40,718 nucleotides of DNA from the IMG/VR virus record IMGVR_UViG_3300033145_001914, positions 1-40,718 of that record. One strand, given 5' to 3'. The position numbers were made by a program, and so were the translations under genes. Below, in pieces: positions 12,694 to 39,460 of this stretch (the stretch's first letter is position 1; each line of letters begins with the position of its first letter). This DNA comes from a virus. The notes under the pieces are model-generated. The model had not been told where the DNA came from and did not search any database. It worked only from the letters and a program-made list of their open reading frames with translations.

Positions 12694-12760
12694 AAGCCTG
12701 AGAGGGAATCGGGTCAATAATAACCCCTTCATGCATTACTACATGAAGACTCTCAGGCTT
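12694..12760 (-). ncRNA. 67-nt three-way-junction leader RNA, copy 1
   Basis: On the minus strand: P1, AAGCCTGAGAG pairing with CTCTCAGGCTT (11 bp); a 1-nt joint; P2, CTTCATGTA-GTAA-TGCATGAAG (9 bp, GNRA tetraloop); P3 directly adjacent, GGGTT-ATTATT-GACCC (5 bp); a 6-nt joint; then the P1 3' strand followed by a T-run. The structure is shared, with compensating changes, by three other copies. The T-run after P1 makes it terminator-like. It lies 21 nt before the endonuclease ATG. Confidence 0.85.
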
Positions 12761-12797
12761 GCTATTTGAATTAATTATTATTGTACGATTCAACATG

Positions 12798-12826
12798 AGT
12801 ATAATTTACCTATTTATAAAAATCAA
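12798..12826 (-). promoter_or_regulatory. sigma-70-like promoter of HNH cassette 1
   Basis: TTGATT and TATACT separated by 17 nt on the minus strand. The expected transcription start lies about 30 nt before the structured leader. The cassette thus brings its own promoter, distinct from the TTTTAAAAA-type phage promoters. Confidence 0.75.
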
Positions 12827-12836
12827 GGATTATTTT

Positions 12837-13754
12837 TTAATCTAAAGTTTGAAAAGCAGCTAATACTATTCCTGGAAAACCCGTTTGAAATATTGAAACA
12901 CTAAAACAATCTAATATCAAGGCCGCCTTTGCATCTTCACCATTAAGCAATACAGCGGACATATATCCAATAACAGCTCTTCTTATCTTTTCCGGTTCAC
13001 TGCTTTTTAACCCCTTCAGGATCTCTGATATCTTTTTCCAAGATGCATTTTTAAGCATGGCTTGACAAAGTTCTCTAACTTCTTTTTTTAGCTCTGTTTC
13101 TCCTATTGCATCCAACATTTTGCCCGTAGAATCTAAATCAATTACTTTATCTAATGTAACCAGAGCTTCACGGGGAGAACCAAGACAAGATTCAATTATC
13201 TCTTCAATTACTTCTTTTGCAATATCGCATTCTTCTTCTTTTAAAACCCATTCCAAAAGTTCTTTAATTTGATCGTCTTTTAATAATTTGACTTCATAAT
13301 GAGTACATCTTGATCTAACAGTCGGAATAATTTTGCTTAGTTCTGTAGTGCAAAGAATAAAATAAACATGAGAAGGGGTATCTTCCAGCGCCTTTAATAA
13401 GCCTTCTTGAAATTTAGGAGAAGATCCATGTGCTTCATCAATAAGCCAAACTCGACATTTAGAACCCGGTTCAAATGGAAGATAATGCATATTCTGTCTA
13501 ATTTGTCTTGCTACATCAATATTTCCACATTGTACCGCATCAAGTTCTATGAAATCACCCGATGTAATTTTGCATTTTATCGCTGATGATATAAGTCTGG
13601 CAATAGTTGTTTTTCCACAACCTCGTGGCCCATGCAGCAATATTGCATGGGGGCAATCTTCGTTTTCAATTTTATTTTGCACCACTTCTACAGTTGCCTC
13701 ATTACCGATAATTTCAGAAAAACTTACAGGTCTGTATTTATGATATAAAGACAT
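12837..13754 (-). CDS. dnaX: clamp loader ATPase (DnaX/RFC-like)
   Basis: The 305-residue AAA+ protein begins SLYHKYRPVSFSEIIGNE, the classical clamp-loader N-terminus, followed by Walker A HGPRGCGKTT (about residues 42-51), Walker B VWLIDEAHG (about 103-111), sensor 1 FILCTTE and the arginine-finger SRC motif VRSRC (about 147-151). The C-terminal collar region is short. It would load the beta clamps encoded at 20009-21055 and/or 22885-24369. The ThyX gene lies immediately upstream. HNH cassette 1 lies immediately downstream. Confidence 0.9.
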   Translation of the reverse strand: MSLYHKYRPVSFSEIIGNEATVEVVQNKIENEDCPHAILLHGPRGCGKTTIARLISSAIKCKITSGDFIELDAVQCGNIDVARQIRQNMHYLPFEPGSKCRVWLIDEAHGSSPKFQEGLLKALEDTPSHVYFILCTTELSKIIPTVRSRCTHYEVKLLKDDQIKELLEWVLKEEECDIAKEVIEEIIESCLGSPREALVTLDKVIDLDSTGKMLDAIGETELKKEVRELCQAMLKNASWKKISEILKGLKSSEPEKIRRAVIGYMSAVLLNGEDAKAALILDCFSVSIFQTGFPGIVLAAFQTLD

Positions 13755-13758
13755 TTAT

Positions 13759-14406
13759 TTATTCTCCTTTTATATTATCAAAGATTACCGGAACTTTTTC
13801 TTTTAGCTCTTTCAATAATGGTAGCATTAATTCTCTCATCTGCGGATGGGCAGCCTTTGAAGTTCTAAGCTTAAAAACATGCAACCATTCTCGAACATTG
13901 GCCGTCATTACAATTTCCGTTTTAAGAGAATTGGGAAGGACAGAACGAGCTTGCTGAGGAGACCAGCCTAATTCAAGGAGATCAATATAATCTATCTCTG
14001 CTGTTAGCATAGCATTAAGCCATATCTTAGATGGAGAACAAAGCAATTCTGAGGGATCTTCAAACTTATACTCGGCAACTCCTAAATCTTTACACCAAGG
14101 AGGAATAATAAAAGTAACTCCTCCTTTGTAATTACAATATCTTGTTGATTCCTGAGAGTAAGCAGCCAGTCTATGCCTTACAATTTCATGAGTGACTCCC
14201 TTATCACAAACGAATCGCACTGACATAAAAGCGTGTTCGATTACTGAAAGATGTCCTCTCTTCATTACCATCTTAACAAACTTCTCAGCACTTCCCTTTG
14301 TTATTTTATCCTCTGATTTGTAACAGGTTCGACCTGCCGCTTCAATTGTTTCAAGCGGCTTCGGTGAAATAAATAAAATCTTATGACTTGGTTTTATTAA
14401 TCTCAT
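13759..14406 (-). CDS. thyX: flavin-dependent thymidylate synthase-like (ThyX)
   Basis: The 215-residue protein has the ThyX signature RHRLAAYSQESTRY (about residues 77-90), preceded by GHLSVIEHAFMSVRFVCD and ending in a typical WLHVFKLR segment followed by AHPQMRELM. ThyX methylates dUMP using flavin. In phages with modified DNA a homologue can instead make a modified pyrimidine precursor; the DUF1599-like and MazG-like genes upstream fit either dTMP supply or base modification. A phage-type promoter lies just upstream at 14429-14458. Confidence 0.9.
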   Translation of the reverse strand: MRLIKPSHKILFISPKPLETIEAAGRTCYKSEDKITKGSAEKFVKMVMKRGHLSVIEHAFMSVRFVCDKGVTHEIVRHRLAAYSQESTRYCNYKGGVTFIIPPWCKDLGVAEYKFEDPSELLCSPSKIWLNAMLTAEIDYIDLLELGWSPQQARSVLPNSLKTEIVMTANVREWLHVFKLRTSKAAHPQMRELMLPLLKELKEKVPVIFDNIKGE

Positions 14407-14428
14407 TTTTATTTTCTCCTTTTTATTT

Positions 14429-14458
14429 ATTATACAATGTCTTCCTCGTTTTTTAAAA
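14429..14458 (-). promoter_or_regulatory. phage-type promoter for thyX
   Basis: The minus strand has TTTTAAAAAA, a spacer ending CATTG, then TATAAT. The site overlaps the last codons of the gene at 14430-14726 (the stop codon is part of the -10). The thyX start is 23 nt beyond. Confidence 0.6.
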
Positions 14459-14726
14459 TTCTTTGTACGACTTTTTTCAAAATCAAATATCCGATCAAAT
14501 CTGTAACCGTATCTTCTTTAATGTCTTTATGGTCTCTGTTTTTTATTCTGGATAACTTATCATCAATTCGGACATTAATTTGTTCCATGTTACTTGCTGA
14601 ACTAAAAATCCGAGGAGGTTCAATCGCAGAATTTCCATACTCTTTATTTTTTTGCAAAAGAATAGATTCAATCTTTCTACATTCTTCAGATATCATTTCC
14701 TGTACTTGTTGTATTTTTGATTTCAT
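14430..14726 (-). CDS. DUF1599-like nucleotide-modification-associated protein
   Basis: The 98-residue protein has a central KNKEYGNSAIEPPRIFSSAS followed by VRIDDKLSRI and EDTVTDLIGYLI. This K-N-x-x-Y-G...I-D-D-K-L-x-R-I...D-L-I-G-Y pattern is that of the DUF1599 / nucleotide-modification-associated family found near phage pyrimidine-metabolism genes. The active role of the family is not established. Genes on both sides (MazG-like, ThyX) act on nucleotides. Confidence 0.7.
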   Translation of the reverse strand: MKSKIQQVQEMISEECRKIESILLQKNKEYGNSAIEPPRIFSSASNMEQINVRIDDKLSRIKNRDHKDIKEDTVTDLIGYLILKKVVQRILKNEEDIV

Positions 14727-14729
14727 CTG

Positions 14730-14987
14730 TTATTTCTCCATGTAGTACAAATTTTCAATAAATTTAATTGCCATAGCTGCTACTTGAACGGCCTCATTGA
14801 CCATCAAAAAATTCGCCATATCAAAGGATTTACTTTCTTTGATTTCACCCCATAATTCATCAACTTCCTCTTTCAGAACCCCATAGCCTTCGTGGGTTGA
14901 GTGAAATGCAGGTCTATTTATATCGGTATAACCAAGTTCAATTTTAATCATTTCTAAAACCTTATCTCTTGTCATTTTCATTTTCAT
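14730..14987 (-). CDS. MazG-like nucleotide pyrophosphohydrolase-type protein
   Basis: The sequence contains HSTHEGYGVLKEEVDELW, then EIKESKS and a helix with NEAVQVAAMAIKFIEN. This E-x-x-E-x-x-E-L-W helix is the metal-binding pattern of small MazG-like proteins. Three ATG codons follow the GGAGA site in a 6-nt repeat (AAAATG). The second, at 14985-14987, has the best spacing and is chosen here; the first would add two residues. Confidence 0.65.
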   Translation of the reverse strand: MKMKMTRDKVLEMIKIELGYTDINRPAFHSTHEGYGVLKEEVDELWGEIKESKSFDMANFLMVNEAVQVAAMAIKFIENLYYMEK

Positions 14988-15008
14988 TTTCATTCTCCTT
15001 TTTCATTT

Positions 15009-15209
15009 TTATTCATCGATATATTTTTCTAATTCCCTTTCCTCAATTAGCCATTTTGGACATAAAATAACTTTTGATTTTTCATCCAGGTTGCATAATG
15101 AAAATGGGAAATAACAACGTTGCTCATCTATTTCAACAAGCCATGAATTTTCACATGATCGAATAAATTTGTCGTACTTAATATTTACAAATTCTGCTAT
15201 TTCATCCAT
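15009..15209 (-). CDS. small hypothetical protein
   Basis: The 66-residue product has the stretch SWLVEIDEQRCYFPFSLCNL and ends WLIEERELEKYIDE. It looks like a small beta-rich fold with three cysteines. Its ATG directly precedes the stop of the upstream gene, so it is coupled to 15210-15452. No family recognised. Confidence 0.6.
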   Translation of the reverse strand: MDEIAEFVNIKYDKFIRSCENSWLVEIDEQRCYFPFSLCNLDEKSKVILCPKWLIEERELEKYIDE

Positions 15210-15452
15210 TTATTTTTCCTCATAAATAATACGCCTTGCATCTGAATATGCTGTTTCATATCCTTCTATCACCAATTTAATATCAGCACAAATCTTTTCA
15301 TCAAGGCTATCCCATGTTGTTTGGCGTCGCATAGAGAACATATTAAAAAAGCTCTCAAATTTTACATCAGGAAATTTCTTATTTAAAAATAATAAAAGAT
15401 TTTCTGAAAAAGTATCATTTAGTCGTTTATCAATTTTATCTCTTAATTTCAT
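15210..15452 (-). CDS. small hypothetical protein
   Basis: The 80-residue helical protein starts at an ATGA overlap with the DnaE gene stop. It has an aromatic-rich centre (FESFFNMFSMRRQTTWDSL). It could be a small partner of the polymerase because of the coupled start, but there is no direct evidence. Confidence 0.6.
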   Translation of the reverse strand: MKLRDKIDKRLNDTFSENLLLFLNKKFPDVKFESFFNMFSMRRQTTWDSLDEKICADIKLVIEGYETAYSDARRIIYEEK

Positions 15453-18400
15453 TTCAATAACTCCAATTTTGTTATAAAATTTTTTATCCCTTCTTGGAAA
15501 GGTTTCAAATTCTGTTTTTCATTTCTCAATACTGCTGATGGATGAACACAAAAGCATATCCATGCCCCTATATTTTCCACCCATTCGGTTGTGCCGCTTA
15601 ATTCTGTAATACCTCCTTTTCTACCCGTCAGGGTATACAATGGAATATTGCCACAGGCCAGAATCAACCTGCATTCTAATTGTTCTAACTCATAATGCAG
15701 CCATTTGTAGCACGCAGAGATTTCTATGTAAGAAGGGGTTTTGGATTGAGAAGGCCAACAATGAACACAGTTTGTCAGATGAAAAAATCTTCTATTGTAG
15801 TTATATTTTGCAAGCTCTTCCCATAATACCTGCCCTGCCTTCCCCACTGCCCCTTTGCTTTCTTTGTCTTCTTGCTTTCCAGGAGCTTCTAACAAAATAA
15901 CAACATTGTATAATCCCATAGAAGACAATACAGGTCTTTTTTTAACCTGCTTTCTCAGATTACAACCATTGCATTGAATAATTTGTTTTTCAAGACGAAA
16001 TCGTTTTCGCCGAATGATATTTTGATTTGGAATATCGAATGCAGGATTAATATTTTCTAATTTCAAAAACCAGTCTAAATGATCGGGAATGGAAGAGCAG
16101 ATTACCTTTTCCAAGTTTGGATATTTCTCTGTTTCGTTTCCTTTGAAATCAATATGAGGAAGATATTTCGATAGCGCTTTTGCAGAAGACATTTTTTCTG
16201 GGTCATCAACTTTTAATTCTTCCAATAATCTATTTAGTTTGGTATCTTGTTTTTTGGTATCATATTGTGCACCAAAAAATCCTTGTAATCTGTTTTGCTT
16301 TGCTGGTTCAAGGCATTTGTTTGCACTATTTTCACCAACACCTGTTATTTCAGCAAAAGGAACATAAATCGTATTGTTGACAAATTGCCATTTAATTGCA
16401 TCCGAATGTTTCCTTTTCGGTGGCATAATTGTATATCCTGCTTGCCTGATTTCTGATAAAAGTGAACTTTTATTTTTATTTTCATCTCTTGATTTCTCAT
16501 TCCATTCTCCGAAAGTTAAACTTGCTGCATAAAATTCTTTAGGACAATGTGATTTCAAATATGCTGTCCAGTATGCGATCAATGCATAAGCAACAGCATG
16601 AGAACGGTTAAATCCATAGCTTGACCACTTTAAAAGTCCTTCCCAAAAATCCTCTGCTTCTTTTTTGGAGAGAGTTTTCATTTTTTTGCAGCCTTGTACA
16701 AACTGTTTTCGGAAAGGATCAAAATCTTTTGCCGTTCTTTTTTTAGCAATTACTTTACGGATTTTATCCGCTGTTGATTCACTTAATCCTGCAACTTTTG
16801 AAATAACTTGCATTACTTGCTCTTGATAAACAAGCAATCCGTAAGTATCCTTTGTTACTTCTTCATACACAAGATGCTTTTCACGCCATGTTTCACCATG
16901 TTTTCTTGCAACATAGTTTTCTGTCATTCCGCTGTCTGCCGGCCCCGGCCGTGCAAGAGCAACTACCGCAACAATATCTTCAAACGAATGAATTTTCATT
17001 TTTCTGCAAAGGGCGGTGCAGGCATGACCTGATAACTGGAATATACCGGATGTATTGCCATCAGAAAGCATTTTGAAAGTTTTTTCATCTTCTAATGGGA
17101 TTTTATTATAATCAAATTCTATTTGTTTGTAATCAAGATATTTTTCCTCGAATTCCCTTTCTATAATTTTGAGAAATAAGTACTTTCCTGATTCTAAACA
17201 ATGATAAAAAGCTCTTGAATTATCTTTTGCATTTATTAGTTGTTTTGCTTCTGACAATACAGACAAAGTAGAAAGGCCAAGCACGTCCAGTTTCATCAAC
17301 CCTGGAAGATCTTCCGAGTCTTCCATGTCCCAGTTGCAAACAATTTTTTCATTTCTTTTTTCAAGAACACATCTATCGCTTTTTCTTAAGTCTTCTTTTG
17401 AAATAATTACAGCTGCGGCATGAACTCCAGCCTGTCTTGCTTGTCCTTCTAATTTCAAGGCTAAATTAGTAACATTAGGATGCTTTTTAAAAAAATATTT
17501 GCCCTCTTTTGTACCGTCGATAGATGCTTGGATAGCACTACTATTTTTTTCATTATTCCACATGGAAATGGAAGAGGCAAAAGAATTAGTATCATTTATA
17601 GAAATATTCATTACCCTACAGACATCTCTGATTGCAGCCTTACTTTTCATACTTCCAATTGTCGAAATTCCACAAGTATTATATTTACCGTAAGTATCTT
17701 CAAGATATTTGACGACTTTGCCCCGGAAACGCTTTTCAAAATCAATGTCAATATCAGGAAGACCTATACGATCATCACTAATAAATCTGGAAAATGAAAG
17801 ACTAAATACAATTGGATTTACTTGCGTTATCCCTGTTAAAAAAGAGATCAGAGATCCTGCTGCTGACCCTCTTCCAGGGCCTACCATGATGTTGTTTTCT
17901 TTTGCCCAGTTAATTAAATCATAAACAATAAGAAAATAACGTATAAAATGTTTTTTCTTTATCAGTTTAAACTCTTCCAGATACCGATCTTTATAAATTT
18001 GAGGCCAATCATTATTTCCGAATATTTTCTCGTATCCTTCCTTGCATATAGCATCTAATAAAACAGCTTCGTTTTTTACATTTTGTGCTAAAGGACTTCT
18101 TGGTAAGGATATTTCTTGTTTTGGAATTCTAAATTGAAAGCACTGTCTTGCAATCTTGATGGTGTTTTTCATTCCCTCTAAAATAATATTTTCCGACCAA
18201 TCACCCTGCTTTTGAAACGCTTCAATCATTTCGTCTGCTGTTCGTAAATGAAGGCCATCAAATCCAAATTTCCATCTTTTGGGATCATCCCATTTTTTTC
18301 GTTGTTGAATTGCAAGTAACATCTCTTGAGCTTCAGCGTCATCTTTATTTATCCAATGGCAATCGTTTGTTACACAAAATTGAATATTAGAAAACTTTTT

Positions 18401-18955
18401 AGATAACGTTTTGATTTTGGAATGGATAGTATGTTGACTGGGAATATCATGGGGCATAATTTCCCAGTATAAATTATCAGGAATTTTATTATATAATTGA
18501 AATAAAAATTCTTCCGATTTTGGCAAATTAAGAAATGAGCCCGCACAAGCCGTCATAATTATTAATCCATCAAGATGACTTAATAAAAGATTGTAATCTA
18601 TTCTTGGCCTGTAATAAAATCCCTCAAGATTTGCAATGGTCAGCATATAACAAAGATTTGCCCATCCATTTCTATTTTTGATGAGAATTGTTATGTGCCC
18701 TCTTTTTTCTTTTTTTTCTTTGATTTGAAAATTAGGAACAATATATAATTCTGCTCCAAGTACAGAATGAATATTTTGTTTTCTACATTCTTTCTGCCAT
18801 TTTATTAAGCCAGTTATATTCCCGTGATTTGTAAGAGCTATATAATTAAATCCAAGTTCTTTCGCTTTTGCAATATATTTGGTTGCACTTCCATATCCAT
18901 CTAATAAACTTAATTGATCATGCAAATGTAAATGAGAGAAGTTTTTGTTATTCAT
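15449..18955 (-). CDS. dnaE: DnaE-type DNA polymerase III alpha fused to a family-4 UDG-like domain
   Basis: The start is taken at the ATG at 18953-18955, overlapping the stop of HNH gene 2; about 1168 aa. A PHP domain opens the protein (SHLHLHDQLSLLDGYG). The palm has VGPGRGSAAGSLISFLTG and the catalytic PDIDIDF; fingers follow with GIFQLSGHA and VALARPGPADSGMTENYV, then FNRSHAVAYALIAYWTAYLK. A helix-hairpin-helix (ITGVGENSANKCLE) lies near residue 890. The last 180 residues form a different domain: CNGCNLRKQ, LLEAPGKQEDKES, VGKAGQVLWEEL, TNCVHCWP, ISACYKWL and HPSAVLRN. These match the motifs and four iron-sulfur cysteines of family-4 uracil-DNA glycosylases. Confidence 0.93.
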   Translation of the reverse strand: MNNKNFSHLHLHDQLSLLDGYGSATKYIAKAKELGFNYIALTNHGNITGLIKWQKECRKQNIHSVLGAELYIVPNFQIKEKKEKRGHITILIKNRNGWANLCYMLTIANLEGFYYRPRIDYNLLLSHLDGLIIMTACAGSFLNLPKSEEFLFQLYNKIPDNLYWEIMPHDIPSQHTIHSKIKTLSKKFSNIQFCVTNDCHWINKDDAEAQEMLLAIQQRKKWDDPKRWKFGFDGLHLRTADEMIEAFQKQGDWSENIILEGMKNTIKIARQCFQFRIPKQEISLPRSPLAQNVKNEAVLLDAICKEGYEKIFGNNDWPQIYKDRYLEEFKLIKKKHFIRYFLIVYDLINWAKENNIMVGPGRGSAAGSLISFLTGITQVNPIVFSLSFSRFISDDRIGLPDIDIDFEKRFRGKVVKYLEDTYGKYNTCGISTIGSMKSKAAIRDVCRVMNISINDTNSFASSISMWNNEKNSSAIQASIDGTKEGKYFFKKHPNVTNLALKLEGQARQAGVHAAAVIISKEDLRKSDRCVLEKRNEKIVCNWDMEDSEDLPGLMKLDVLGLSTLSVLSEAKQLINAKDNSRAFYHCLESGKYLFLKIIEREFEEKYLDYKQIEFDYNKIPLEDEKTFKMLSDGNTSGIFQLSGHACTALCRKMKIHSFEDIVAVVALARPGPADSGMTENYVARKHGETWREKHLVYEEVTKDTYGLLVYQEQVMQVISKVAGLSESTADKIRKVIAKKRTAKDFDPFRKQFVQGCKKMKTLSKKEAEDFWEGLLKWSSYGFNRSHAVAYALIAYWTAYLKSHCPKEFYAASLTFGEWNEKSRDENKNKSSLLSEIRQAGYTIMPPKRKHSDAIKWQFVNNTIYVPFAEITGVGENSANKCLEPAKQNRLQGFFGAQYDTKKQDTKLNRLLEELKVDDPEKMSSAKALSKYLPHIDFKGNETEKYPNLEKVICSSIPDHLDWFLKLENINPAFDIPNQNIIRRKRFRLEKQIIQCNGCNLRKQVKKRPVLSSMGLYNVVILLEAPGKQEDKESKGAVGKAGQVLWEELAKYNYNRRFFHLTNCVHCWPSQSKTPSYIEISACYKWLHYELEQLECRLILACGNIPLYTLTGRKGGITELSGTTEWVENIGAWICFCVHPSAVLRNEKQNLKPFQEGIKNFITKLELLK

Positions 18956-19843
18956 TATAATTGTACCCATATTTTTCAGACATAATTTCCTGATAAAAAT
19001 TAATCCATTTTGTTCTGTTCGTATTTGCTCTTGAATTACAACTTGTACATAGTGTTATTAAATTCCAAGGATCGCAATTCTTTTTGATGTAATCAATATG
19101 ATGAATTGTTAATGGTAAATGACTACATTTTTTCCAACAATCAGGGTTTTGGCATTCGTTATTATCTCTGTCTTTTATATCTTTTTTGTATTCTTTATCT
19201 AACCAAACATCGCAGTAGGGATCAGCGGCTATGCCTCCTTTCCAAGCAGAACACAAAGGGCCAATCCTACCATACATAACATTATTGCTTCCTTTACGAT
19301 CTTTACTCCATTTTGCCCGCTGTTCAAAAGTATGAACAAGGCCCAATGCATGTTGTCTTCCTGTCATAAATTTACGATGTTTTTCTTTTGTTTCAATTGT
19401 CATCTTCATGCCTTCATGTGACCTGGCTATAATTGCTTTTGCTATGGAGGAATGGAACTTGCCATAAAAATGATTTTTGCTTCCCTTCATAGATTCAGAT
19501 TTAATTTTCAATTGTTCCTCTGTATATTTATATCCAAACATGGGATGACTTTCTCCGAATCTACCTGCCATTGCTCCTGTTTTTCCATACATAGGATTAT
19601 TTTCTTTTCTGCTTTGATGTCCAGAAATAAACTTATTCCATTGTTTTCTATGTTTGCACCATTTAACTTGCTTTTGACATCCACAATTGCACAGCGGGGC
19701 TTCTGAGTCAGAAGGCCTTTTAACTCTACCCCGATGACCAAAAATAAACTTATTCCATTTTCTTTTCCATTTATCCCACTTGACCCTTTCTCCACATCCA
19801 CAATCGCACAATGGGGGAATTGTTCTTTTTTAAATCTACTCAT
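18948..19843 (-). pseudogene. HNH homing endonuclease (cassette 2), frameshifted near its start
   Basis: The ATG at 19841-19843 sits after GGAGA and 21 nt from the structured leader, as in the other cassettes, but after about nine codons the frame is lost. A run of six A (plus-strand T at 19826-19831) places the CDCGCGERVKW continuation in another frame, where two fewer or one more A would restore it. The main frame from 19811 has two C-x-C-G-C modules, NUMOD3-like segments (NNPMYGKTG, HPMFGYKYTEEQ) and an intact HNH domain (CQNPDCW, LTIHHIDYIKKN, NLITLCTSCN). It may be inactive, expressed by slippage on the A run, or reflect a sequencing error. Confidence 0.8.
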
Positions 19844-19863
19844 GTTGGATTCTCCAAATAAAA

Positions 19864-19930
19864 AAGCCTGAGAGTGATTAAAGTCGATAATGACTTCTTT
19901 ATGCATCGCTGCATAAAGGCTCTCAGGCTT
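19864..19930 (-). ncRNA. 67-nt three-way-junction leader RNA, copy 2
   Basis: P1 is identical to copy 1. P2 is CTTTATGCA-GCGA-TGCATAAAG (9 perfect pairs, GNRA loop). P3 is AAGTC-ATTATC-GACTT. Relative to copy 1, P2 and P3 differ by compensatory changes, so the pairing is conserved rather than the sequence. It ends in a T-run and lies 21 nt before the ATG. Confidence 0.85.
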
Positions 19931-19970
19931 ATAGTTATTTAGATTATTCATTATCATTTTAATCAATATA

Positions 19971-19999
19971 AGTATATTTTATTATTTGAATAAAGTCAA
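19971..19999 (-). promoter_or_regulatory. sigma-70-like promoter of HNH cassette 2
   Basis: TTGACT and TATACT with a 17-nt spacer on the minus strand, about 40 nt before the structured leader and just after the end of the clamp gene at 20009-21055. Confidence 0.75.
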
Positions 20000-21074: not shown

Positions 21075-21926
21075 TTATTTTATATTTACTAATTTCATTC
21101 CGTAATTATTGATGCCTTTTGGAATTTTTATCCCTTCTTTTTTAATCAATCTATTGTGTTTGAATTGTCGGTAATCAACATGATGTTGCCATCGTCCCCA
21201 TTTTCGTGTTATTTTAACAATATCAGGATGTTGCTTTCTTAATGATTCTGCCATTTTCCAACGTCCATCGTCTTCTTTTTTTACATCATTATTTCCTTGA
21301 TACAATTCATCTGTATTGCCGCCTTTCATAATCATCGTTGGCATTTTATCTGCTAAAAAAGCATTAAACAAAACAGTACACCATTTATCTTTTAAAACTC
21401 GTATTGATAAATCTGTATCTTCATTATATCTTCCTCTCCATTTATAAGGAATATCGTTTTTAATAAGAATGCAGGAATAAATACGGGTATTCAAATAAAA
21501 TGGGGGAACTTTATTTTTTCGTGGAACCAACAATTCATAGTTAAACCCTGAAATGGCAACGTTTTTATATCTATCAACAAAATCTTCAGCGGCTTTAAAA
21601 ATTGAACCAGAAGATACCCTTATTTTTAGGTTTTGATTCAATCTATAAAAAACCCTTAAATTATCATCCAGTATCCAATGTCGTTTTGTGCCTATTGATA
21701 TTGAATGCGCCCATACCCAGTTACGGGCAGGAATTGAACCTTGGCCGAGATTGCTGAAAGGCAAGGTGTATATTTTGTCAGAATCAATAACATTTGCATA
21801 TTGATCATATTCCTGTGGTTCAACTACAATATGATAAGGAACATTTATTTTTTCTAATGCTTTTGCTGTAAGCCTGCTTTTCCATCGGCCCTTTGAAATT
21901 ATGTAAATTGGATATTGTGGATTCAT
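21075..21926 (-). CDS. glycosyltransferase of the TET/base-modification-associated type
   Basis: The 283-residue protein begins YPIYIISKGRWKSRLTAKAL, then YHIVVEPQEYDQYANVI, HWILDDNLRVFY and a RYNEDTDLSIRVLKDKWC segment. The D-D-N and E-D-x-D-L-S-x-R-x-L pattern is that of the GT-A-fold glycosyltransferases found with DNA-base hypermodification genes in phages. It probably transfers a sugar onto a modified pyrimidine in DNA; no TET/JBP oxygenase is seen in the window. It starts in an ATGA overlap with the gene at 21923-22189. Confidence 0.7.
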   Translation of the reverse strand: MNPQYPIYIISKGRWKSRLTAKALEKINVPYHIVVEPQEYDQYANVIDSDKIYTLPFSNLGQGSIPARNWVWAHSISIGTKRHWILDDNLRVFYRLNQNLKIRVSSGSIFKAAEDFVDRYKNVAISGFNYELLVPRKNKVPPFYLNTRIYSCILIKNDIPYKWRGRYNEDTDLSIRVLKDKWCTVLFNAFLADKMPTMIMKGGNTDELYQGNNDVKKEDDGRWKMAESLRKQHPDIVKITRKWGRWQHHVDYRQFKHNRLIKKEGIKIPKGINNYGMKLVNIK

Positions 21927-26255: not shown

Positions 26256-27059
26256 TTATAAATACGGATATAATCCCTGTTTTTCAATATTTGGATTATC
26301 AATTCTGTTATCTTGAGTTTGTAATTTATCAATTCTTTTAGCAGCTATCTCGCAATACTCTTCGCCGATTTCAATGCCAATCCACCTACGATGAAGGCGT
26401 TCACAGGCTATTGCTGTTGTACCGGAGCCGAGAAAGGGGTCTAAAATAACGGCATCTGTGGAAGTCCAGCCCTCTAATATTTTCATTACAAGGTTTACAG
26501 GAAAACAGGCTTTATTTTCTTTGAGGCTTTTCCCTTTCCCAAGGCGCCATATATCCTGCATTGTGCCCCTACCAAAATAACTTTTATTAAATTGACGACC
26601 GGCTGTTGCATTTCGTTCTAATATAAGAATTAACTCACTGGCTCTGTTTAAAACGCCTTCATGCATCGCTGGTTGCCCAAAACCTTTGTCCCAAACAATA
26701 ATATCTTTTATCTCTTTGTTGAAATTTCCAATAAGTTTAAAAATAGCCTCTTTACTTCCGGTAACTATTTGAATATTCCAAAAAACTATCGGGGACAATC
26801 TCAGCATTTCAGTCAATACAAGGTTGTGAAAATTATAATATTTATCAATTGAAAGGGCATCGTCAAAATGTTTATATTTTTTACTGAAGTGTTCCGAATT
26901 TTCCCTTGTTGTATATTCTCCATTACAAATCCGGGTTCGCATGTTATACGGCGGGCTCGTAACTACCAAATCCACAGGCTCAAGTTCTGGCATTATCTCA
27001 AGACAGTCTCCATGATATAATTTGCCTAATTTTGTAGAATAATAAAACTTAGATAGCAT
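26256..27059 (-). CDS. beta-class DNA methyltransferase (TSPPY type)
   Basis: The 267-residue protein has KLGKLYHGDCLEIMPEL, then motif IV LVVTSPPYNMR (about residues 30-40), and late in the sequence motif I AVILDPFLGSGTTAIACE with GIEIGEEYCEIAAKRI. Motif IV before motif I marks the beta class, which includes N4-cytosine and N6-adenine enzymes. The present start (MLSKFYYSTKLGK) overlaps the HNH gene 3 stop. An older start, MIKPYYETKL, survives as a remnant at 27852-27899 on the other side of the HNH cassette. Confidence 0.88.
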   Translation of the reverse strand: MLSKFYYSTKLGKLYHGDCLEIMPELEPVDLVVTSPPYNMRTRICNGEYTTRENSEHFSKKYKHFDDALSIDKYYNFHNLVLTEMLRLSPIVFWNIQIVTGSKEAIFKLIGNFNKEIKDIIVWDKGFGQPAMHEGVLNRASELILILERNATAGRQFNKSYFGRGTMQDIWRLGKGKSLKENKACFPVNLVMKILEGWTSTDAVILDPFLGSGTTAIACERLHRRWIGIEIGEEYCEIAAKRIDKLQTQDNRIDNPNIEKQGLYPYL

Positions 27060-27684
27060 TTAATCTACTCCTAAAATAATTTGTCCAACACTTTCTATTA
27101 TAATTTGTTTTCATATGACAACTCCTGCATAATGAAACAAGGTTATTAATTTCTATATTTTTCTTAACATAATCTATATGATGAATATCTAACTTTTTAT
27201 CCTCTGTTTTTTCACATAACTGACAAATATTGCTATCAATTTGCCTAACTTTATTTTTATAATTAGCATTAAAATCTATAGGATATGGCTCAAATGAAAT
27301 TCCACCCATCCAATTAGGAGACATCTCTCCACAAGTACCATACATTGGATTGTTTTTTTCGGTACGGGTTATAGAGCAATGCTTCTTAAAGCAATTCATT
27401 GAACAAAACAAAGTTCCTTTTTTAGTTAACGGTACAAAGAATATTTTTTTACAAATTGGACAAAGTTTTTCTTTATAGGTAATTGGTAGGGAAGTTCTTT
27501 TGAGCCATGCTTTTTTCATACCTATAGACTGTTTTTGTCTATGAGCAAAAGAAAACCGCTTATTTTTATTGTTATGTCCAGTAATAAACTTATTCCAAAT
27601 ATATGGAGATAATTTACTCCTTGTAACTTTTTCTCCGCAACCGCAGGCACACAAAGGTGGAATCGTCCTTTTAAATCTACTTAT
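27049..27684 (-). CDS. HNH homing endonuclease (cassette 3), apparent AUA start
   Basis: The position matching the ATG of the other cassettes (21 nt from the leader, 7 nt after GGAGG) is an ATA at 27682-27684. From there 211 residues follow: one C-x-C-G-C module (CACGCGEKVTRSKL), a CPICKK...CSMNC zinc-like pair, a NUMOD3-like NNPMYGTCGEM and an HNH domain (CQLCEKT, KLDIHHIDYVKKN, NLVSLCRSCHMK). The frame is also open through the leader to an ATG at 27807, but that ATG falls at the promoter -10. Initiation at AUA, or loss of expression, are both possible. Its end overlaps the methyltransferase start. Confidence 0.8.
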   Translation of the reverse strand: MSRFKRTIPPLCACGCGEKVTRSKLSPYIWNKFITGHNNKNKRFSFAHRQKQSIGMKKAWLKRTSLPITYKEKLCPICKKIFFVPLTKKGTLFCSMNCFKKHCSITRTEKNNPMYGTCGEMSPNWMGGISFEPYPIDFNANYKNKVRQIDSNICQLCEKTEDKKLDIHHIDYVKKNIEINNLVSLCRSCHMKTNYNRKCWTNYFRSRLNAI

Positions 27685-27704: not shown

Positions 27705-27771
27705 AAACCTGAGAGTGAATAGTGTTAGCAACAACACCTCTATGCGTCACCGCATAAAGACTCTCAGGTTT
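27705..27771 (-). ncRNA. 67-nt three-way-junction leader RNA, copy 3
   Basis: P1 has one compensated change relative to the others (AAACCTGAGAG with CTCTCAGGTTT). P2 is CTTTATGCG-GTGA-CGCATAGAG (9 pairs, GNRA loop). P3 is GTGTT-GTTGCT-AACAC, five pairs that differ from every other copy yet still pair. A T-run follows. Confidence 0.85.
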
Positions 27772-27808
27772 TAATAAATTTTGATTGTTTGCTATACTAT
27801 TCAACATA

Positions 27809-27837
27809 AGTATAATTTATCTTTTTATAAAAATCAA
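27809..27837 (-). promoter_or_regulatory. sigma-70-like promoter of HNH cassette 3
   Basis: TTGATT and TATACT with a 17-nt spacer, almost identical to the promoter of cassette 1, about 38 nt before the leader. Confidence 0.75.
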
Positions 27838-32929: not shown

Positions 32930-32963
32930 TTAATACCTCCTATGACAAGGTTAAAAGATATTT

Positions 32964-33102
32964 GTTAATGTCCAGCAAGCGGTCATAGCACTTACTGGAC
33001 ATTAACAGAGTAGTTAATCGGTGTGGCAGATATTAACAGGATATCTGCCGGGGATCACCGACTTTGAAATTTGCGACTGAAGAGCGGCCAGGGACTTCAG
33101 TC
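32964..33102 (-). ncRNA. three-hairpin structured leader upstream of the initiator gene
   Basis: This lies in the 276-nt gene-free stretch 32930-33205. In minus-strand order: hairpin 1 at 33075-33102 (GACTGAAG/CTTCAGTC); hairpin 2 at 33019-33060, an outer CGGTG/CACCG around GGCAGATAT/ATATCTGCC; hairpin 3 at 32964-33006, 18 continuous pairs starting GTTAATGTCCAG with a 7-nt CTATGAC loop. It is locally far more GC-rich than the surroundings. It could be a regulatory leader or a separate small RNA. No known family recognised. Confidence 0.75.
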
Positions 33103-33131
33103 AAAACAATGGAGAAAAACACATTTTCAAT

Positions 33132-33160
33132 ATAATAAATAATAAAAAGTTAAAAATCAA
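33132..33160 (-). promoter_or_regulatory. sigma-70-like promoter for the three-hairpin leader
   Basis: TTGATT and TATTAT separated by 17 nt on the minus strand, about 30 nt before hairpin 1. It resembles the endonuclease-cassette promoters rather than the TTTTAAAAA type. Confidence 0.6.
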
Positions 33161-33205
33161 GAGAAAAATTAATTTATTTTTTGGAATCAAAAACTATAAT
33201 ATCTA

Positions 33206-34147
33206 TTATAAATATTTCTCAACGGTTTCAATAATAAAATTATCCCAAAATTTTCTATCGGCCTTTTTAGGCAAGGTACTTGTTTTTGACAGGGTTTCCA
33301 CATGAGACATAACTAACTCAAGTGTTGGGGCAACTATCCTTTTATAGTCAAACTCGCCCTGCTTTACTGCACGTAAAAATGGAGCCTTTTTCAGTGGAAA
33401 TGTTATTGTCCCATCTTGCAATAATTCCTGCACTTGGTATGCTGCTCTCAAAGCATGAGAAACAGCTTTCCAATCAATATTTTTATTTTCAGCAGCTTCT
33501 TTTGCCCTTTTGCCATACGTTTCATAAAACTTTGTTAGAATATCCAAAACATATCCAATCTTAGTTGTCTCTTGTATGATTTTCCCGCAAATCTGATATT
33601 GCCGAACACTATTTCTATTTGTTTCAATCATATATAAATGTTCTTCTGTTGGTAATTGGTTCCATATAGTCTTCATTTTTTCCGATTCATCACGTACACT
33701 CAAAAGTTTGATAACTTTGGCTGTAGCATTCAGACGACTTCCTTTAATTTCATATTTAGAAGCTTGCCGTTTTGCATATCCGATAAATGCTTTAAGATTT
33801 TTTGTATAAAACTTTTCTCTATTCTTAACAATCGCTTTCCATACGTCTGACGATTCTATTATCATATTGTCGGGAGCATGGAGCATATCTAATGCTACCG
33901 TTTGGCCTTCACAAGCTAATTTAATAAAATAATGTAAGGAATATATTTCTGTATCAACATCTTCAGAAGTATTTTTCTCGGCTCCTTGTTTTGTTGTACT
34001 ATTATAGCTTTTAGGAATATGCCCAAGAAATATCTGTTCTTTAGATGGCATAAAAATGCCTTTGAAATCTTTATCAGAATCAGACGTTGCCGTACCATAT
34101 AGATGCGAACCAAAAACCATTTTTACTATTGTTTTTTCAGCTTTCAT
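33206..34147 (-). CDS. nucleotidyltransferase-superfamily protein (YcgL-like)
   Basis: The 313-residue protein starts with the nucleotidyltransferase signature MVFGSHLYGTATSDSDKDFK (G-S-x-L-Y-G...D-S-D-x-D, about residues 10-29), followed by IFMPSKEQIFLG and a DVDTEIYSLHYFIKLACEG segment carrying the third acidic residue. The C-terminal half is helical. Such predicted nucleotidyltransferases occur in many phages; substrate unknown. GGAGA lies before the ATG. It is co-transcribed with the primase gene. Confidence 0.8.
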   Translation of the reverse strand: MKAEKTIVKMVFGSHLYGTATSDSDKDFKGIFMPSKEQIFLGHIPKSYNSTTKQGAEKNTSEDVDTEIYSLHYFIKLACEGQTVALDMLHAPDNMIIESSDVWKAIVKNREKFYTKNLKAFIGYAKRQASKYEIKGSRLNATAKVIKLLSVRDESEKMKTIWNQLPTEEHLYMIETNRNSVRQYQICGKIIQETTKIGYVLDILTKFYETYGKRAKEAAENKNIDWKAVSHALRAAYQVQELLQDGTITFPLKKAPFLRAVKQGEFDYKRIVAPTLELVMSHVETLSKTSTLPKKADRKFWDNFIIETVEKYL

Positions 34148-34165
34148 AATTTTTTCTCCTTTATT

Positions 34166-35071: not shown

Positions 35072-35180
35072 CTCTGATTATCCTGATGAGCAATATCCCT
35101 ATACAAAGTAGAATTATTGGCAGCAGCCAAAATCTATTATCTGATATAGATTGAACAAAAGTTAAAAATATTTCCATCAT
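35064..35180 (-). CDS. tiny membrane protein
   Basis: A 38-residue frame between the gene at 35177-35434 and the primase, starting at an ATG 5 nt after AGGAGG and ending in an overlap with the primase ATG. It has one transmembrane helix (FWLLPIILLCIGILLIRII, residues 17-35). Ribosome binding site, overlaps on both sides and hydrophobic segment make it credible. Function unknown. Confidence 0.6.
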   Translation of the reverse strand: MMEIFLTFVQSISDNRFWLLPIILLCIGILLIRIIRDA

Positions 35181-35434
35181 GCTTTCCTCCTGAATTTTGG
35201 GGTATAAACCTCCCCGTTTTCGTTAATGCGTTTGCCGCCTCTGCCAATGACATCCGGGTTACTCATCCATGGCCGGTATCTAAAATCCCGCATCATTTTA
35301 ATTGCTGTATTAAAGGCATTGATTTCGTATTCTCTTTTGGTTGGTTGCGGGAGTTTAGTTTTGTCGGGTCTCAATGCCTCAAAGTTTGCATCTCCTATTT
35401 TCGGTCTTTTGTCATCAGATATCATGTCCGCCAT
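35177..35434 (-). CDS. hypothetical protein
   Basis: The 85-residue basic protein (DKRPKIGDANFEALRPDKTK ... GGKRINENGEVYTPKFRRKA) starts after a near-perfect AAGGAGG. It has a conserved-looking middle (MRDFRYRPWMSNPDVIGRGG). It directly follows the displaced 3' end of the helicase gene, so it was probably the original downstream neighbour of that helicase. Function unknown. Confidence 0.6.
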   Translation of the reverse strand: MADMISDDKRPKIGDANFEALRPDKTKLPQPTKREYEINAFNTAIKMMRDFRYRPWMSNPDVIGRGGKRINENGEVYTPKFRRKA

Positions 35435-35435
35435 T

Positions 35436-35690
35436 TTATCCTCCTTTTACTTTGCTGATTAATTCGGTAAGAACGCTGGTTGATTTGATTTCTTTACCAT
35501 CTAAAATTTGACTTAATACTTTTTGTTTTTTGCTGATGATTTCTGCAATAGATTCTTCAATTGTGTTGTTCGCGATAAGATAATAGATATTGACGCTGCT
35601 TGCATTTTGGCCGATTCTGTGGGGTCTGTCTTCAGCCTGTAAAACTTCTCCTGGAGACCTAAAGTTTATGTAGGATATACATTTTCCCAT
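35436..35690 (-). pseudogene. displaced original 3' end of the SNF2 helicase gene
   Basis: Starting within the HNH gene 4 end, this frame reads SPGEVLQAEDRPHRIGQ followed by NASSVNIYYLIANNTIEESI and an LSQILDGKEIKS tail, then stops. It matches the C-terminal 80 residues of the helicase at 36607-38586, with 65 bp identical at DNA level but a diverged tail. There is no ATPase domain and no credible start of its own. It looks like the original gene end left behind when HNH gene 4 and a substitute end entered. Confidence 0.8.
35587..35651. repeat. 65-bp direct repeat, remnant copy
   Basis: Identical to 36758-36822 over 65 bp. It encodes helicase motif VI (GEVLQAEDRPHRIGQNASSV). Sequences on both sides differ from the other copy at about the level expected of diverged homologues. 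Confidence 0.95.
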
Positions 35691-36523
35691 CGTGATTTTA
35701 TTTTTATATTTATTTGAGAGATGTTTTTATTTTTAATTACTTCTTGATAATAAGTTGTCCAATAATTACGATTTTTTTGTGTTTTTCCGTGACATCTTTT
35801 GCAAAGAGTGATTAAGTTACCTGGGTCATGATCTTGTTTGTCGTAGTTTATATGGTGTACGTCTAATAATTGATGCGGATTTTTACATTTTGGATTTTGA
35901 CATTTGTGGCTGTCTCTTGCCCTGATTTTTTCAATATACCAAGCAGCCCATCCAATAGCATATGGTTTGCTGTCAATCCCGCCCTGCCAATTAGATGCTT
36001 TTTCTCCGTTGTATTTTCCTTTAAGTGCATTACTCATTTTTTGTTTTGATTCTTTTGTATGGTGTTTATTTTTAAACGGGTTTGAATTGGTTTTAAAGTA
36101 TTTTTTTAAAGTTTGGGATATTTGCTGTTTTTGTTTTTCAGATATAATGACTTTTCCCTTTTTGGCCTTACTTATTTTTTGTTTTGTTTCTTCTGTATGT
36201 TTTCTTCCTTTGCCCGCTTTACTTATTTTTTGTTTTGTTTCTTCTGAGACTTTAAATCCTTTTTCTTTTTTTAGTTTTTCTCTTATAATTGCGGCCTTTC
36301 TCATTTTTTGTTTTGCTTCTCTTGTATGTTTTCTTCCTTTCCAAATCTTTGCTTTTGCTTTTCTCATTTCTTTGGTCATTATTTTTTTCATTGTTTCTGA
36401 AATTTTTTTTCTTTCACTTTCTGGTCTCTTTCTTCCCCTTGTATTATGTCCAGGAAGAAATTTAGCTGTTTTAGATTTAACTCTTTCCTTACACCCACAT
36501 AGACAAAATTGAAAGTTATTCAT
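35666..36523 (-). CDS. HNH homing endonuclease with NUMOD3-like repeats (helicase 3' insertion)
   Basis: The 285-residue protein begins with a C-x-C-G-C module (FCLCGCKERVKSKTAKFLPG), then about six basic repeats of the NUMOD3 kind (KGRKHTREAKQKMRKA, KGRKHTEETKQKISKA, KGKVIISEKQKQQISQ), a NWQGGIDSKPYAIGW segment and an HNH domain (CQNPKCKN, LLDVHHINYDKQDHDP, NLITLCKRCHGKT). GAGGAG precedes the ATG. Unlike cassettes 1-3 it lacks the 67-nt leader. It separates the helicase gene from its displaced 3' end. Confidence 0.88.
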   Translation of the reverse strand: MNNFQFCLCGCKERVKSKTAKFLPGHNTRGRKRPESERKKISETMKKIMTKEMRKAKAKIWKGRKHTREAKQKMRKAAIIREKLKKEKGFKVSEETKQKISKAGKGRKHTEETKQKISKAKKGKVIISEKQKQQISQTLKKYFKTNSNPFKNKHHTKESKQKMSNALKGKYNGEKASNWQGGIDSKPYAIGWAAWYIEKIRARDSHKCQNPKCKNPHQLLDVHHINYDKQDHDPGNLITLCKRCHGKTQKNRNYWTTYYQEVIKNKNISQINIKIKSRWENVYPT

Positions 36524-36558
36524 TTTTGATTTCTCCTCTTAAAATATTAATAATAATA

Positions 36559-36587
36559 TAGATATAATATTTCAAGAGAAATGTCAA
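36559..36587 (-). promoter_or_regulatory. possible promoter before HNH gene 4
   Basis: TTGACA lies on the minus strand at 36582-36587 in the gap after the helicase stop. Downstream AT-rich sequence offers only imperfect -10 boxes at 15-17 nt spacing (TATATC or TATCTA). Confidence 0.35.
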
Positions 36588-36606
36588 GCCCTATCTTCTG
36601 CTTGAA

Positions 36607-38586
36607 CTATGTATTTTTTAAAACATCTATTAATTCTTTAAAAGTGCTATTTTCTTCTATGGCTTTTCCGTCCAATATTTGGTCAAGAATATTGGCCTTT
36701 TTTTCAAGTAATTTTACAATGTCTTCTTCAATAGTTTGAGATGCTAATAAGAACCAAATATTGACGCTGCTTGCATTTTGGCCGATTCTGTGGGGTCTGT
36801 CTTCAGCCTGTAAAACTTCTCCGCTTGACCATGGAAATTCTAAGAAGCAAACATTTGATGCAGCGGTTAACGTTATCCCAACTCCTGCTGCTTTAACGTT
36901 TCCAATAAACAGCTTGATATCTGGATTGCCTTGAAATTTATCAACTACAAATTGTCTTTCCCGTAGAGATGTTGAGCCATCTAATTTAACCGCAATGTCG
37001 CCAAAATGCTCTGTTAATAGTTGGATTGTTTTTTTGTGAGTGCAAAATATAATCAGTTTTTGATCTGACTCTAAAAAATTCTCAATCCAATTTATGCATT
37101 GTTTGATTTTGCCATTGATTGCAAGCTGTTTTAATTTTTCAAAAGAAACAAGTACTTCTGCCTGTGATGCTTTTTCGGCTTTTTCTTTTCCTTCGTTTTC
37201 TTTAATCCAAGAAATTATATTTGATTCTGCATATTTATATTCTTTGTAATTGTCAATTTTAAGAGGGACAATTGATCTTGTTTTAGCAGGCAAATCTTTT
37301 AAAACGTCTTCTTTTTTTCTGCGTATCATAATGGTATTAGTTAATAGTTTATGTAGCTTAGTTGTATTTGTAGCCCCGTTGAAATCCCATCCGAATCCGT
37401 TGTGTTTTGCTCCGCAATATTCGTGGGCAAATTTCCATCTGCTTGGGAATAATCCGGGTTCGATAATTTTGATGCTGTTGTAAAATTCAATAGGGCGGTT
37501 GGTAATTGGCGTGCCGGATAAGGCAATTACGTGTTTAATTTTTTTGCAAATTTTTATAACTGCTTTTGTTCGCTGGGCTTTATTATTTTTTACCATGTGC
37601 ACTTCGTCTAATATAACGACTTTAAAATTGTATTCTTGAATTCTTTCTTCCCATTTGCCGAGAATATCGTAATTGATTATTACGATATTTCCATGCAAAG
37701 GGTTTCCGGATGTTTTATTTGGAGAGCCAGAGCAAATTTGAACGTCTGCATTTTCTTTTGTGTTTGACATCCATATATTAATTTCTTTTGCCCAGTTTAA
37801 TTTGAGACTTGCAGGAACAATTATCAGCGCCGGTCTTAATTCGGGATGTAATTGCAAATAGGCAAGTGACTGAGCAGTTTTTCCTAATCCCATGCTATCT
37901 GCAATTAACGCTCTTCCGTTTCGGTTTTCAATAAAGGCAGCCCCTTCTTTTTGAAACGGATATAAGTCCCTTTTCAGTCCTGGGATTTCCAAGTTGTGAT
38001 TAATTTCTGGTTTAACAGTTATCTTTCTGTACCATTCTTGTAAATCAGAAGAGATATCAAATTTCCATTCTGTCAGTTTTTCTGCTGCTTCAATTGATAA
38101 TGGGCATACCCAGCCAGCTTCTGGTGTTTTGACAAATCGTCTTCCAGGGAGAGTTTTTACTTTTGAAACCATCTCAAAGAATTGAGGGTCTCCTTTTGGG
38201 AACTGAAACTTAATGACAATATTGTTTTTCTCTAATGTTGCTGTTTTGATGGTTGGCAGGATTGCTTCTGTTTTTATTGGCGATAAATTCACTGGCTCAA
38301 AGCCAACTTGCTCAAGTTGCATAATGTATTTTAGCATTGTACGCTTAACATAAGGGATTTGTTTTTCAGATAGACTTCCCTTTTTCAGGAATTGTTTTGC
38401 CATGCTTGACATGAATCCTGCGTCAACGGCATTGAATCCCATTGCATTGTCGTGTTGAGTGCTGCCGGAATATTGTTCATCTGTAGTTTGGAATGAATAA
38501 ATCTTCAGTAATGCTCCGATTGCGTATTCTGTATGATTCTTAATAAGATTAATTAGGTGATCTTTTTGTTTATCAGCTTTAAGCAT
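36607..38586 (-). CDS. SNF2-family helicase (SMARCAL1/UvsW-like role)
   Basis: The 659-residue protein has an N-terminal region of about 200 residues, then SNF2 motifs: I ADSMGLGKTAQSLAYLQ, Ia ALIIVPASLKLNW, II VVILDEVHMVKN (DEVH), III HVIALSGTPITNRPIEFY, IV LIIFCTHKKT, V VKAAGVGITLTAASNV and VI LQAEDRPHRIGQ. Such phage helicases remodel forks or Holliday junctions. The start, MLKADKQKD, overlaps the GIY-YIG gene end, whose last codons carry its AAGGAG site. Both ends of the gene appear to be substitutes: older versions persist at 39536-39613 and 35436-35690. Confidence 0.9.
   Translation of the reverse strand: MLKADKQKDHLINLIKNHTEYAIGALLKIYSFQTTDEQYSGSTQHDNAMGFNAVDAGFMSSMAKQFLKKGSLSEKQIPYVKRTMLKYIMQLEQVGFEPVNLSPIKTEAILPTIKTATLEKNNIVIKFQFPKGDPQFFEMVSKVKTLPGRRFVKTPEAGWVCPLSIEAAEKLTEWKFDISSDLQEWYRKITVKPEINHNLEIPGLKRDLYPFQKEGAAFIENRNGRALIADSMGLGKTAQSLAYLQLHPELRPALIIVPASLKLNWAKEINIWMSNTKENADVQICSGSPNKTSGNPLHGNIVIINYDILGKWEERIQEYNFKVVILDEVHMVKNNKAQRTKAVIKICKKIKHVIALSGTPITNRPIEFYNSIKIIEPGLFPSRWKFAHEYCGAKHNGFGWDFNGATNTTKLHKLLTNTIMIRRKKEDVLKDLPAKTRSIVPLKIDNYKEYKYAESNIISWIKENEGKEKAEKASQAEVLVSFEKLKQLAINGKIKQCINWIENFLESDQKLIIFCTHKKTIQLLTEHFGDIAVKLDGSTSLRERQFVVDKFQGNPDIKLFIGNVKAAGVGITLTAASNVCFLEFPWSSGEVLQAEDRPHRIGQNASSVNIWFLLASQTIEEDIVKLLEKKANILDQILDGKAIEENSTFKELIDVLKNT
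36758..36822. repeat. 65-bp direct repeat, copy inside the intact helicase
   Basis: Identical to 35587-35651. It lies in the helicase motif VI coding region about 150 bp before the stop codon. Confidence 0.95.
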
Positions 38587-39373
38587 TTTGAATCTCCTTT
38601 AATCTTCTTCTTTTTTGTGATTCAGACATTTTCTTTTTTGTTTCAATTGATGCTTTTATTCCTTTGTGCGATTTAGATATTTTCTTTTTTGTTTCTTCAG
38701 AAAGTTTTTTGCCTTTATGAGAGATAGACATTTTTCTTTTTGTTTCATCTGAAAGAATTTTACCCATCAAGGTAATTGATATTTTTTTCTTAACTTCCTT
38801 AGGTCTTTTTTTACCTGTTAAAGAAGTAGATATTCTTTTTCTTGTTTCTTTAGTGACTTCATGTCCTATTGCTAATTCAGACATTTTTCGTTTAGATGTT
38901 TCTGAATGCCTTTTTCCCTTGTGTGATTTAGACATTTTTTGTTTTGTTTTTTTGAGATGTTGTTTGCCAGTATTTGTTTTTGCAATTTTTCTTTTTTGTT
39001 CTTCTGTCATTGGCTTGCCATAATTAGGATTATTTTTACCCGTTAATGCCTTTGATATTTTTTGTTTAGTTTTATTCGAGGCTTTATAATTTTCTCCTCC
39101 GGTTGTTAGATTATAGCCATCATTAAATGTATTATAGAAATCAATATAAAAAGATTCTAATTTGTTAAGTTTATTTATATCATTGCATCTATCTAATATT
39201 TTCCATGAAAAATTTTTAGGTTTATATTTTTTAATAGCACTTCCAAAATAGGTATTTTTATTTTCGTTTAAGGCATTCCAAATATGCATATATTTACGGC
39301 GTTTTAAATTTACAATAGTTTGCCCAATGTAAGACTTTCCATTAATTTTGTTTGTCGCCATGTAAATTATCAT
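38579..39373 (-). CDS. GIY-YIG homing endonuclease with NUMOD3 repeats (cassette 4)
   Basis: The start is the ATG at 39371-39373, after GGAGA and 21 nt from the leader; 264 aa. The catalytic domain is IIYMATNKINGKSYIGQT (G-x-x-YIG variant), KYMHIWNAL and ESFYIDFYNTFNDGYNLTTG. The C-terminal 150 residues are eight or so NUMOD3-type repeats (TKQKISKALTGKNNPNYGK, TKQKMSKSHKGKRHSE, TKRKMSISHKGKKLSE and so on) for DNA binding. Although its catalytic family differs from the HNH genes, its promoter and leader are of the same type. It sits before the helicase gene. Confidence 0.9.
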   Translation of the reverse strand: MIIYMATNKINGKSYIGQTIVNLKRRKYMHIWNALNENKNTYFGSAIKKYKPKNFSWKILDRCNDINKLNKLESFYIDFYNTFNDGYNLTTGGENYKASNKTKQKISKALTGKNNPNYGKPMTEEQKRKIAKTNTGKQHLKKTKQKMSKSHKGKRHSETSKRKMSELAIGHEVTKETRKRISTSLTGKKRPKEVKKKISITLMGKILSDETKRKMSISHKGKKLSEETKKKISKSHKGIKASIETKKKMSESQKRRRLKEIQNA

Positions 39374-39393
39374 ATCGAATTCTCCAAATAAAA

Positions 39394-39460
39394 AAGCCTG
39401 AGAGCGAATGAAGTCGATAGCGACCCTCCCATACCTCACGATATGAGAACTCTCAGGCTT
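39394..39460 (-). ncRNA. 67-nt three-way-junction leader RNA, copy 4
   Basis: P1 as in copies 1 and 2. P2 is TCTCATATC-GTGA-GGTATGGGA, nearly all changed in sequence but still nine pairs (two G-U) with a GNRA loop. P3 is GGGTC-GCTATC-GACTT (two G-U). This copy precedes a GIY-YIG gene, so the leader is not tied to one endonuclease family. Confidence 0.85.

Follow-up and report, generated by a model that had tools for sequence, protein, structure and literature searches.

C4-like RNA elements with matching leader targets precede homing-endonuclease genes of several families in uncultivated phages

Introduction

In the window analysed here, which is the whole of an IMG/VR virus record (40,718 bases), four homing-endonuclease genes are each preceded by a structured RNA element of 67 nt, and the question arises of what kind of RNA this is and why it should stand before endonucleases of different families. 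A first-pass annotation had taken the element for a leader RNA of no known kind that might serve as an attenuator, a processing signal or a ribozyme-like element. We examine here its structure, its relation to the leader in which it lies, the genes behind it and its likeness to known phage RNAs.

Results

All four elements are 67 nt long and lie on the minus strand (Table 1), and the fold proposed for them, consisting of P1 (11 bp), a 1-nt joint, P2 (9 bp, GNRA loop), P3 (5 bp, 6-nt loop) and a 6-nt joint, was reproduced as described. In the alignment of the four copies every one of the 100 pair cells holds a standard pair, and both sides are changed in nine of the pairs (one in P1, five in P2, three in P3), the single P1 case being the compensated change already noticed in copy 3. 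Shuffled controls of this alignment averaged 91% paired, structures displaced by 1-3 columns were only 29-55% paired, and the helix P1 pattern, which occurs four times in the window, was found 0 times in 100 dinucleotide shuffles. These counts, together with the covariation of further copies described below, bear out the claim of a structured, covarying RNA. The distance to the endonuclease start had been given as 21 nt in every case; in fact 20 nt lie between the element and the start codon. The P3 loop (L3) and the 6-nt joint (J3/1) had been regarded as unpaired, which is wrong, as both are complementary to the 5' end of the leader. Judged by this complementarity, the 67-nt element is only part of the feature, to which the target in the 5' leader also belongs. 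The full cassette runs from a sigma70-type promoter through a 16-nt target (b'-4 nt-a'), an A-rich linker, the 67-nt RNA, a U-tract and a ribosome binding site to the gene.

Table 1. Parts of the four endonuclease cassettes in the window
Feature	Position	Strand	Remarks
Copy 1 C4-like antisense RNA element (P1-P2-P3-J3/1)	12694..12760	-	
Copy 1 target	12777..12792	-	S1/b' 12792-12787, complementary to J3/1; 4-nt spacer; S2/a' 12782-12777, complementary to L3
Copy 1 promoter TTGATT-N17-TATACT	12798..12826	-	
Copy 1 U-tract (TTTTATTT) and GGAGG ribosome binding site	12674..12693	-	
Copy 1 HNH homing endonuclease	11954..12673	-	frame open upstream through RNA to ATG at 12796
Copy 2 C4-like antisense RNA element	19864..19930	-	
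Copy 2 target	19950..19965	-	S1/b' 19965-19960; spacer; S2/a' 19955-19950
Copy 2 promoter TTGACT-N17-TATACT	19971..19999	-	
Copy 2 NUMOD3-HNH homing endonuclease	18948..19843	-	intact ORF 18948-19811; gene end overlaps start of next gene; frameshift at A-run directly after ATG (19811-19843)
Copy 3 C4-like antisense RNA element	27705..27771	-	compensated P1 pair
Copy 3 target	27788..27803	-	S1/b' 27803-27798; spacer; S2/a' 27793-27788
Copy 3 promoter TTGATT-N17-TATACT	27809..27837	-	
Copy 3 HNH homing endonuclease	27049..27684	-	start codon ATA instead of ATG (27682-27684); leader frame runs open into gene; frame open upstream to ATG at 27807
Copy 4 C4-like antisense RNA element	39394..39460	-	
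Copy 4 target	39477..39493	-	S1/b' 39493-39488; 5-nt spacer; S2/a' 39482-39477
Copy 4 promoter TTGATT-N17-TATAGT	39499..39527	-	
Copy 4 GIY-YIG/NUMOD3 homing endonuclease	38579..39373	-	

Other parts of the window include a tRNA-like sequence (11484-11598, minus strand; 58 bits with the Rfam tRNA model) that has a 47-nt insertion in the anticodon loop and is not reported by ARAGORN, an RlaP-like nucleotidyltransferase gene (33206-34147) that suggests RNA repair, and a TET-associated glycosyltransferase gene (21075-21926) that suggests DNA base modification.

Pattern scans of viral contigs, a protein-led search, whole-record searches and covariance models together yielded 34 distinct copies in uncultivated phages, which were used for the statistics, and two more in one record (G024). 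Pairing is kept in these homologues: 97.5% of the cells are paired in the 34 copies, 18 of 25 pairs show double-sided changes, and such changes occupy 165 cells, against 39 +/- 7 in shuffles. The helix P1 core was partly fixed by the search patterns used to collect copies; compensated P1 changes are also present in copies found without a pattern (L063, G024:20600 and those from the phylum Desulfobacterota). The reported lack of an Rfam match was confirmed, as no family matches the elements; permissive thresholds gave no relevant match, the HEARO/omega RNA families gave none, and three leaders compared by blastn with 50,697 phage records had no match there either. A self-cleaving ribozyme or processing site would be in keeping with a compact three-way junction and possible pseudoknots, but the conserved unpaired bases comprise the GNRA loop and one J1/2 base only, leaving no catalytic candidates, and no Rfam ribozyme matches. 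We therefore regard the suggested ribozyme-like element as highly improbable. An HDV-like topology was rejected, the catalytic residues and the junction being absent.

Divergent relatives were found in 7 of 297 genomes from the phylum of Desulfogranum japonicum, and most of them keep the b'-spacer-a' order upstream. One locus (L202) has a full promoter-target-RNA-U-tract-endonuclease cassette, another relative precedes an integrase gene, and at a third locus (L193) a divergent C4-like element is followed first by a short ORF and then by a gene with an ORF6N domain (315-1238, minus strand). The ORF6N domain is typical of phage antirepressors. These bridging relatives hint at Desulfobacterota as possible hosts. 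A sample of 299 genomes from the Bacillota-type phylum of another copy (L028) gave one weak partial match. Pattern matches in two Omnitrophota genomes (L029, L037) were rejected as members since their fold differs; they represent another recurrent hairpin (L029 5308-5374, L037 6042-6110) with a similar closing stem (CCTGAGAGATTAACC...CTCTCAGG).

The two target segments at the start of the leader, S1 and S2, match J3/1 and L3, respectively, by complementarity in nearly all copies. Among 32 copies the spacer between the segments measures 4 nt in 24 and 5 nt in 6. S1 usually begins 5 nt past the -10 box of a TTGACA-N17-TATAAT-type promoter and so should be the extreme 5' end of the RNA. Complementarity to a copy's own leader exceeded that to the leaders of other copies with z of 13.1 for L3 and 12.2 for J3/1 (0 of 20,000 permutations), an excess already apparent with 22 copies. 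Among 20 copies of equal geometry, 11 of the 12 L3-S2 and J3/1-S1 pairs are changed on both sides; because that set was selected for a 4-nt spacer, the permutation is the fair test of target pairing. The same own versus cross comparison revealed no second target downstream at the ribosome binding site (z -0.7 and 1.2). Pairing scores averaged 13.5 for own targets and 5.6 for cross pairings within a genome, with 0 of 42 cross pairings at the own level. The codes differ no more within than between genomes, which is to say that no extra divergence was seen inside genomes, and the private codes may therefore be a by-product of fast divergence.

Such complementarity could also belong to a leader that acts in cis only, in which J3/1 and L3 would be bound by S1 and S2 of the same molecule to make a double pseudoknot, helix P1 and the U-tract would attenuate transcription, and no trans RNA would be involved. 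A 4-nt spacer would suit a 5-bp P3 that has to be crossed, the target is on the same transcript, the lengths of L3 and S2 vary together (r 0.77), and while helix P1 is still open the energy of P3 (-15.5 kcal/mol) is almost that of the S1/S2 pairing (-16.0 kcal/mol). We nevertheless consider this arrangement rather unlikely, given that C4 and CI RNAs, whose anatomy is the same, have an antisense action (PMC5320573, PMC4825925) and that fixed attenuation would need no more than a simple hairpin.

T makes up 83% and A 7% of the tract that leads from helix P1 to the ribosome binding site; before the other ribosome binding sites of the window the values are 32% and 52%, respectively. The T-run recorded earlier is confirmed, and with a GC-containing stem followed directly by a U-tract, helix P1 looks like part of an intrinsic terminator. 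Between the -35 and -10 boxes of three further copies (L015, L172, L138) lie palindromes (TTCCAAAAGGAA, ATTCTCAAAAGAAT and TTTCTCTAAAAGAAA, respectively) that resemble repressor operators.

A reading frame is open through 24 of 24 of the 67-nt copies, where shuffling of the pairs would lead one to expect 14.0 +/- 2.4, the copies being related and not independent. It is open from S1 to P1 in 27 of 32 leaders, and the S1-P1 length is 2 mod 3 in 26 of 32 copies. In about half of the copies the frame enters the endonuclease in frame, and otherwise it mostly stops near the endonuclease start. Were the region mainly protein-coding, as an N-terminal extension or leader peptide with RNA structure secondary, the open frame and the preferred length would be accounted for; third-position bias is absent, however (entropies 0.95/1.05/1.01), the double-sided changes keep pairs and not amino acids, and the frame is broken in several copies with intact downstream genes (L007, L008, L016), all of which makes this explanation very unlikely. 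Since, in addition, most in-frame leader ATGs are situated shortly before the point at which transcription is expected to begin, and the copies are not independent, we treat the open leader frame as a lead. Ribosomal frameshifting at UUUUUUA was rejected, because the U-run comes after the structure and because in many copies the frames already agree, and an anti-Shine-Dalgarno role of CUCUC was unsupported where the ribosome binding site is changed (L007).

The association of the RNA with more than one protein family, as first proposed, extends to at least three nuclease families. Most copies precede genes for homing endonucleases, which are HNH proteins with NUMOD3 or NUMOD4, HNH proteins with AP2, other HNH proteins, GIY-YIG proteins or Vsr-like nucleases, the last of which show DUF559/MTES_1575 matches; one copy (L010) precedes an HTH gene, and those at two loci (L018, with two copies, and L019) precede gene remnants. 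Conversely, related HNH genes stand without the RNA at all but 4 of 79 loci, and the fifth HNH gene of the window, a NUMOD3-HNH gene at 35666-36523, is without it. A related phage (record G016) has replication genes in common with the window, yet its four copies lie elsewhere. On the strength of the unrelated nuclease families, the 4 of 79 HNH loci and the sites that differ between related phages, the RNA is best described as travelling with cassettes and not with one protein family. That it adjoins nuclease genes, some of them HNH, might recall an omega-RNA-like guide for the endonuclease, an idea that we find scarcely credible because the RNA is common to unrelated nucleases, its variable parts match its own transcript and it is without a guide-like extension.

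Discussion

From the arrangement of these sequences, we hold it fairly probable that a C4-type antisense module has been adopted by homing-endonuclease cassettes and limits their own expression. The promoter would yield mostly a short RNA ending at the U-tract, and the b'-a' target of read-through or operon mRNA could be bound by this RNA in cis as well as in trans. Such pairing would block the leader ORF, favor termination at helix P1 or do both, and endonuclease expression would as a result be low or restricted to early infection. Within one phage the antisense part of each copy fails to match the targets of the others, so that several cassettes should be able to coexist without mutual silencing, a copy-specific targeting that we liken to that of the C4 RNAs of phages P1 and P7, each specific to its own targets.

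More tentatively, and with somewhat less than even confidence, we propose that unrelated homing endonucleases have in common a mobile antisense-immunity module with a code that diverges from one cassette to the next, each cassette limiting itself without silencing its neighbours and silencing incomers of the same code. If this is true, selfish genes carry a portable off-switch, which would go some way toward accounting for a phage's tolerance of four such genes, and the natural antisense pairs with different codes would form a ready set for specificity tests. 'C4 antisense RNA' and 'homing endonuclease' were not found together in the literature searched, which was mostly that outside subscription journals.

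Comparison with known systems

Leader RNA structure that controls, or may control, homing-endonuclease expression is shared with the T4 family, in which leader hairpins (I-TevI, segB, mobE) restrain homing endonucleases, mostly by hiding the ribosome binding site; in seg43 of Aeromonas phage 25 a stable hairpin directly precedes a ribosome binding site that is left free (PMC2988022). Those structures are, however, simple hairpins with no antisense element and matching target. The isrK-orf45-anrP region of the Salmonella prophage Gifsy-1 comprises a promoter, a terminator-ended sRNA, a 45-codon leader ORF and a coupled gene behind it, and orf45 has variable amino acids and either a stop that overlaps the next start (AUGA) or a fusion to the next ORF (PMC4825925). 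The open leader frame here resembles the leader ORFs icd and orf45, but Gifsy-1 differs in that IsrK activates translation and the gene is an antirepressor (PMC4825925). The IsrK model (RF01394) found no sequence match in the leaders here.

C4 and CI RNAs, which Rfam groups in clan CL00128, are prophage immunity devices that control antirepressors or replication genes, and those of phages P1 and P4 share the arrangement described here, so that the earlier statement that no known kind of RNA fits is not supported. The P4 CI RNA is similar in size (about 69 nt, against 67 nt here) and also pairs as an antisense RNA with an upstream leader, and the P4 copy fits the Rfam C4 family (RF01695). It acts through premature termination via seqA and seqC (PMC4825925), which lie on both sides of it, whereas the elements here have an upstream target only and, unlike phages P1 and P4, are without a second target downstream.

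C4 itself is a three-stem RNA that RNase P excises; its two antisense parts cover target ribosome binding sites, and a 4-nt difference separates phage P1 from P7 (PMC5320573). The RF01695 consensus consists of helix P1, P2 with a tetraloop, P3 with a large loop, a 7-nt J3/1 and P1'. Common to the elements here and the C4 of P1/P7 (targets RF03163, c4-a1b1) are the three-way junction, the P2 tetraloop, the placement of a in L3 and b in J3/1, a b'-a' target upstream on the same transcript, and antisense parts that vary on a scaffold that is kept. In phage P1 the upstream leader reads TTGACAG, which pairs with J3/1, then 6 nt, then TGTTAGTG, which pairs with L3, and P4 has the same target order, the pairings in both phages being read by eye from the sequence. 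C4 differs in its 17-bp helix P1 (11 bp here) and in controlling an antirepressor where the elements here precede endonucleases. A GG at the 5' end of the C4 helix P1 marks RNase P processing; the elements here lack it and most copies begin the helix with AAG/AAC. Phages P1 and P4 scored 69 and 75 bits with RF01695 in a reference check, whereas the same model gave no match above its gathering cut-off to window-type elements and the element covariance model gave none to phages P1 and P4; since each model misses the other's members, the scores do not establish common descent with C4. Judged by their anatomy, the elements appear to work like C4 and are probably related to it, standing by score outside the Rfam C4 family, whose model would then miss a whole branch of RNAs of this design.
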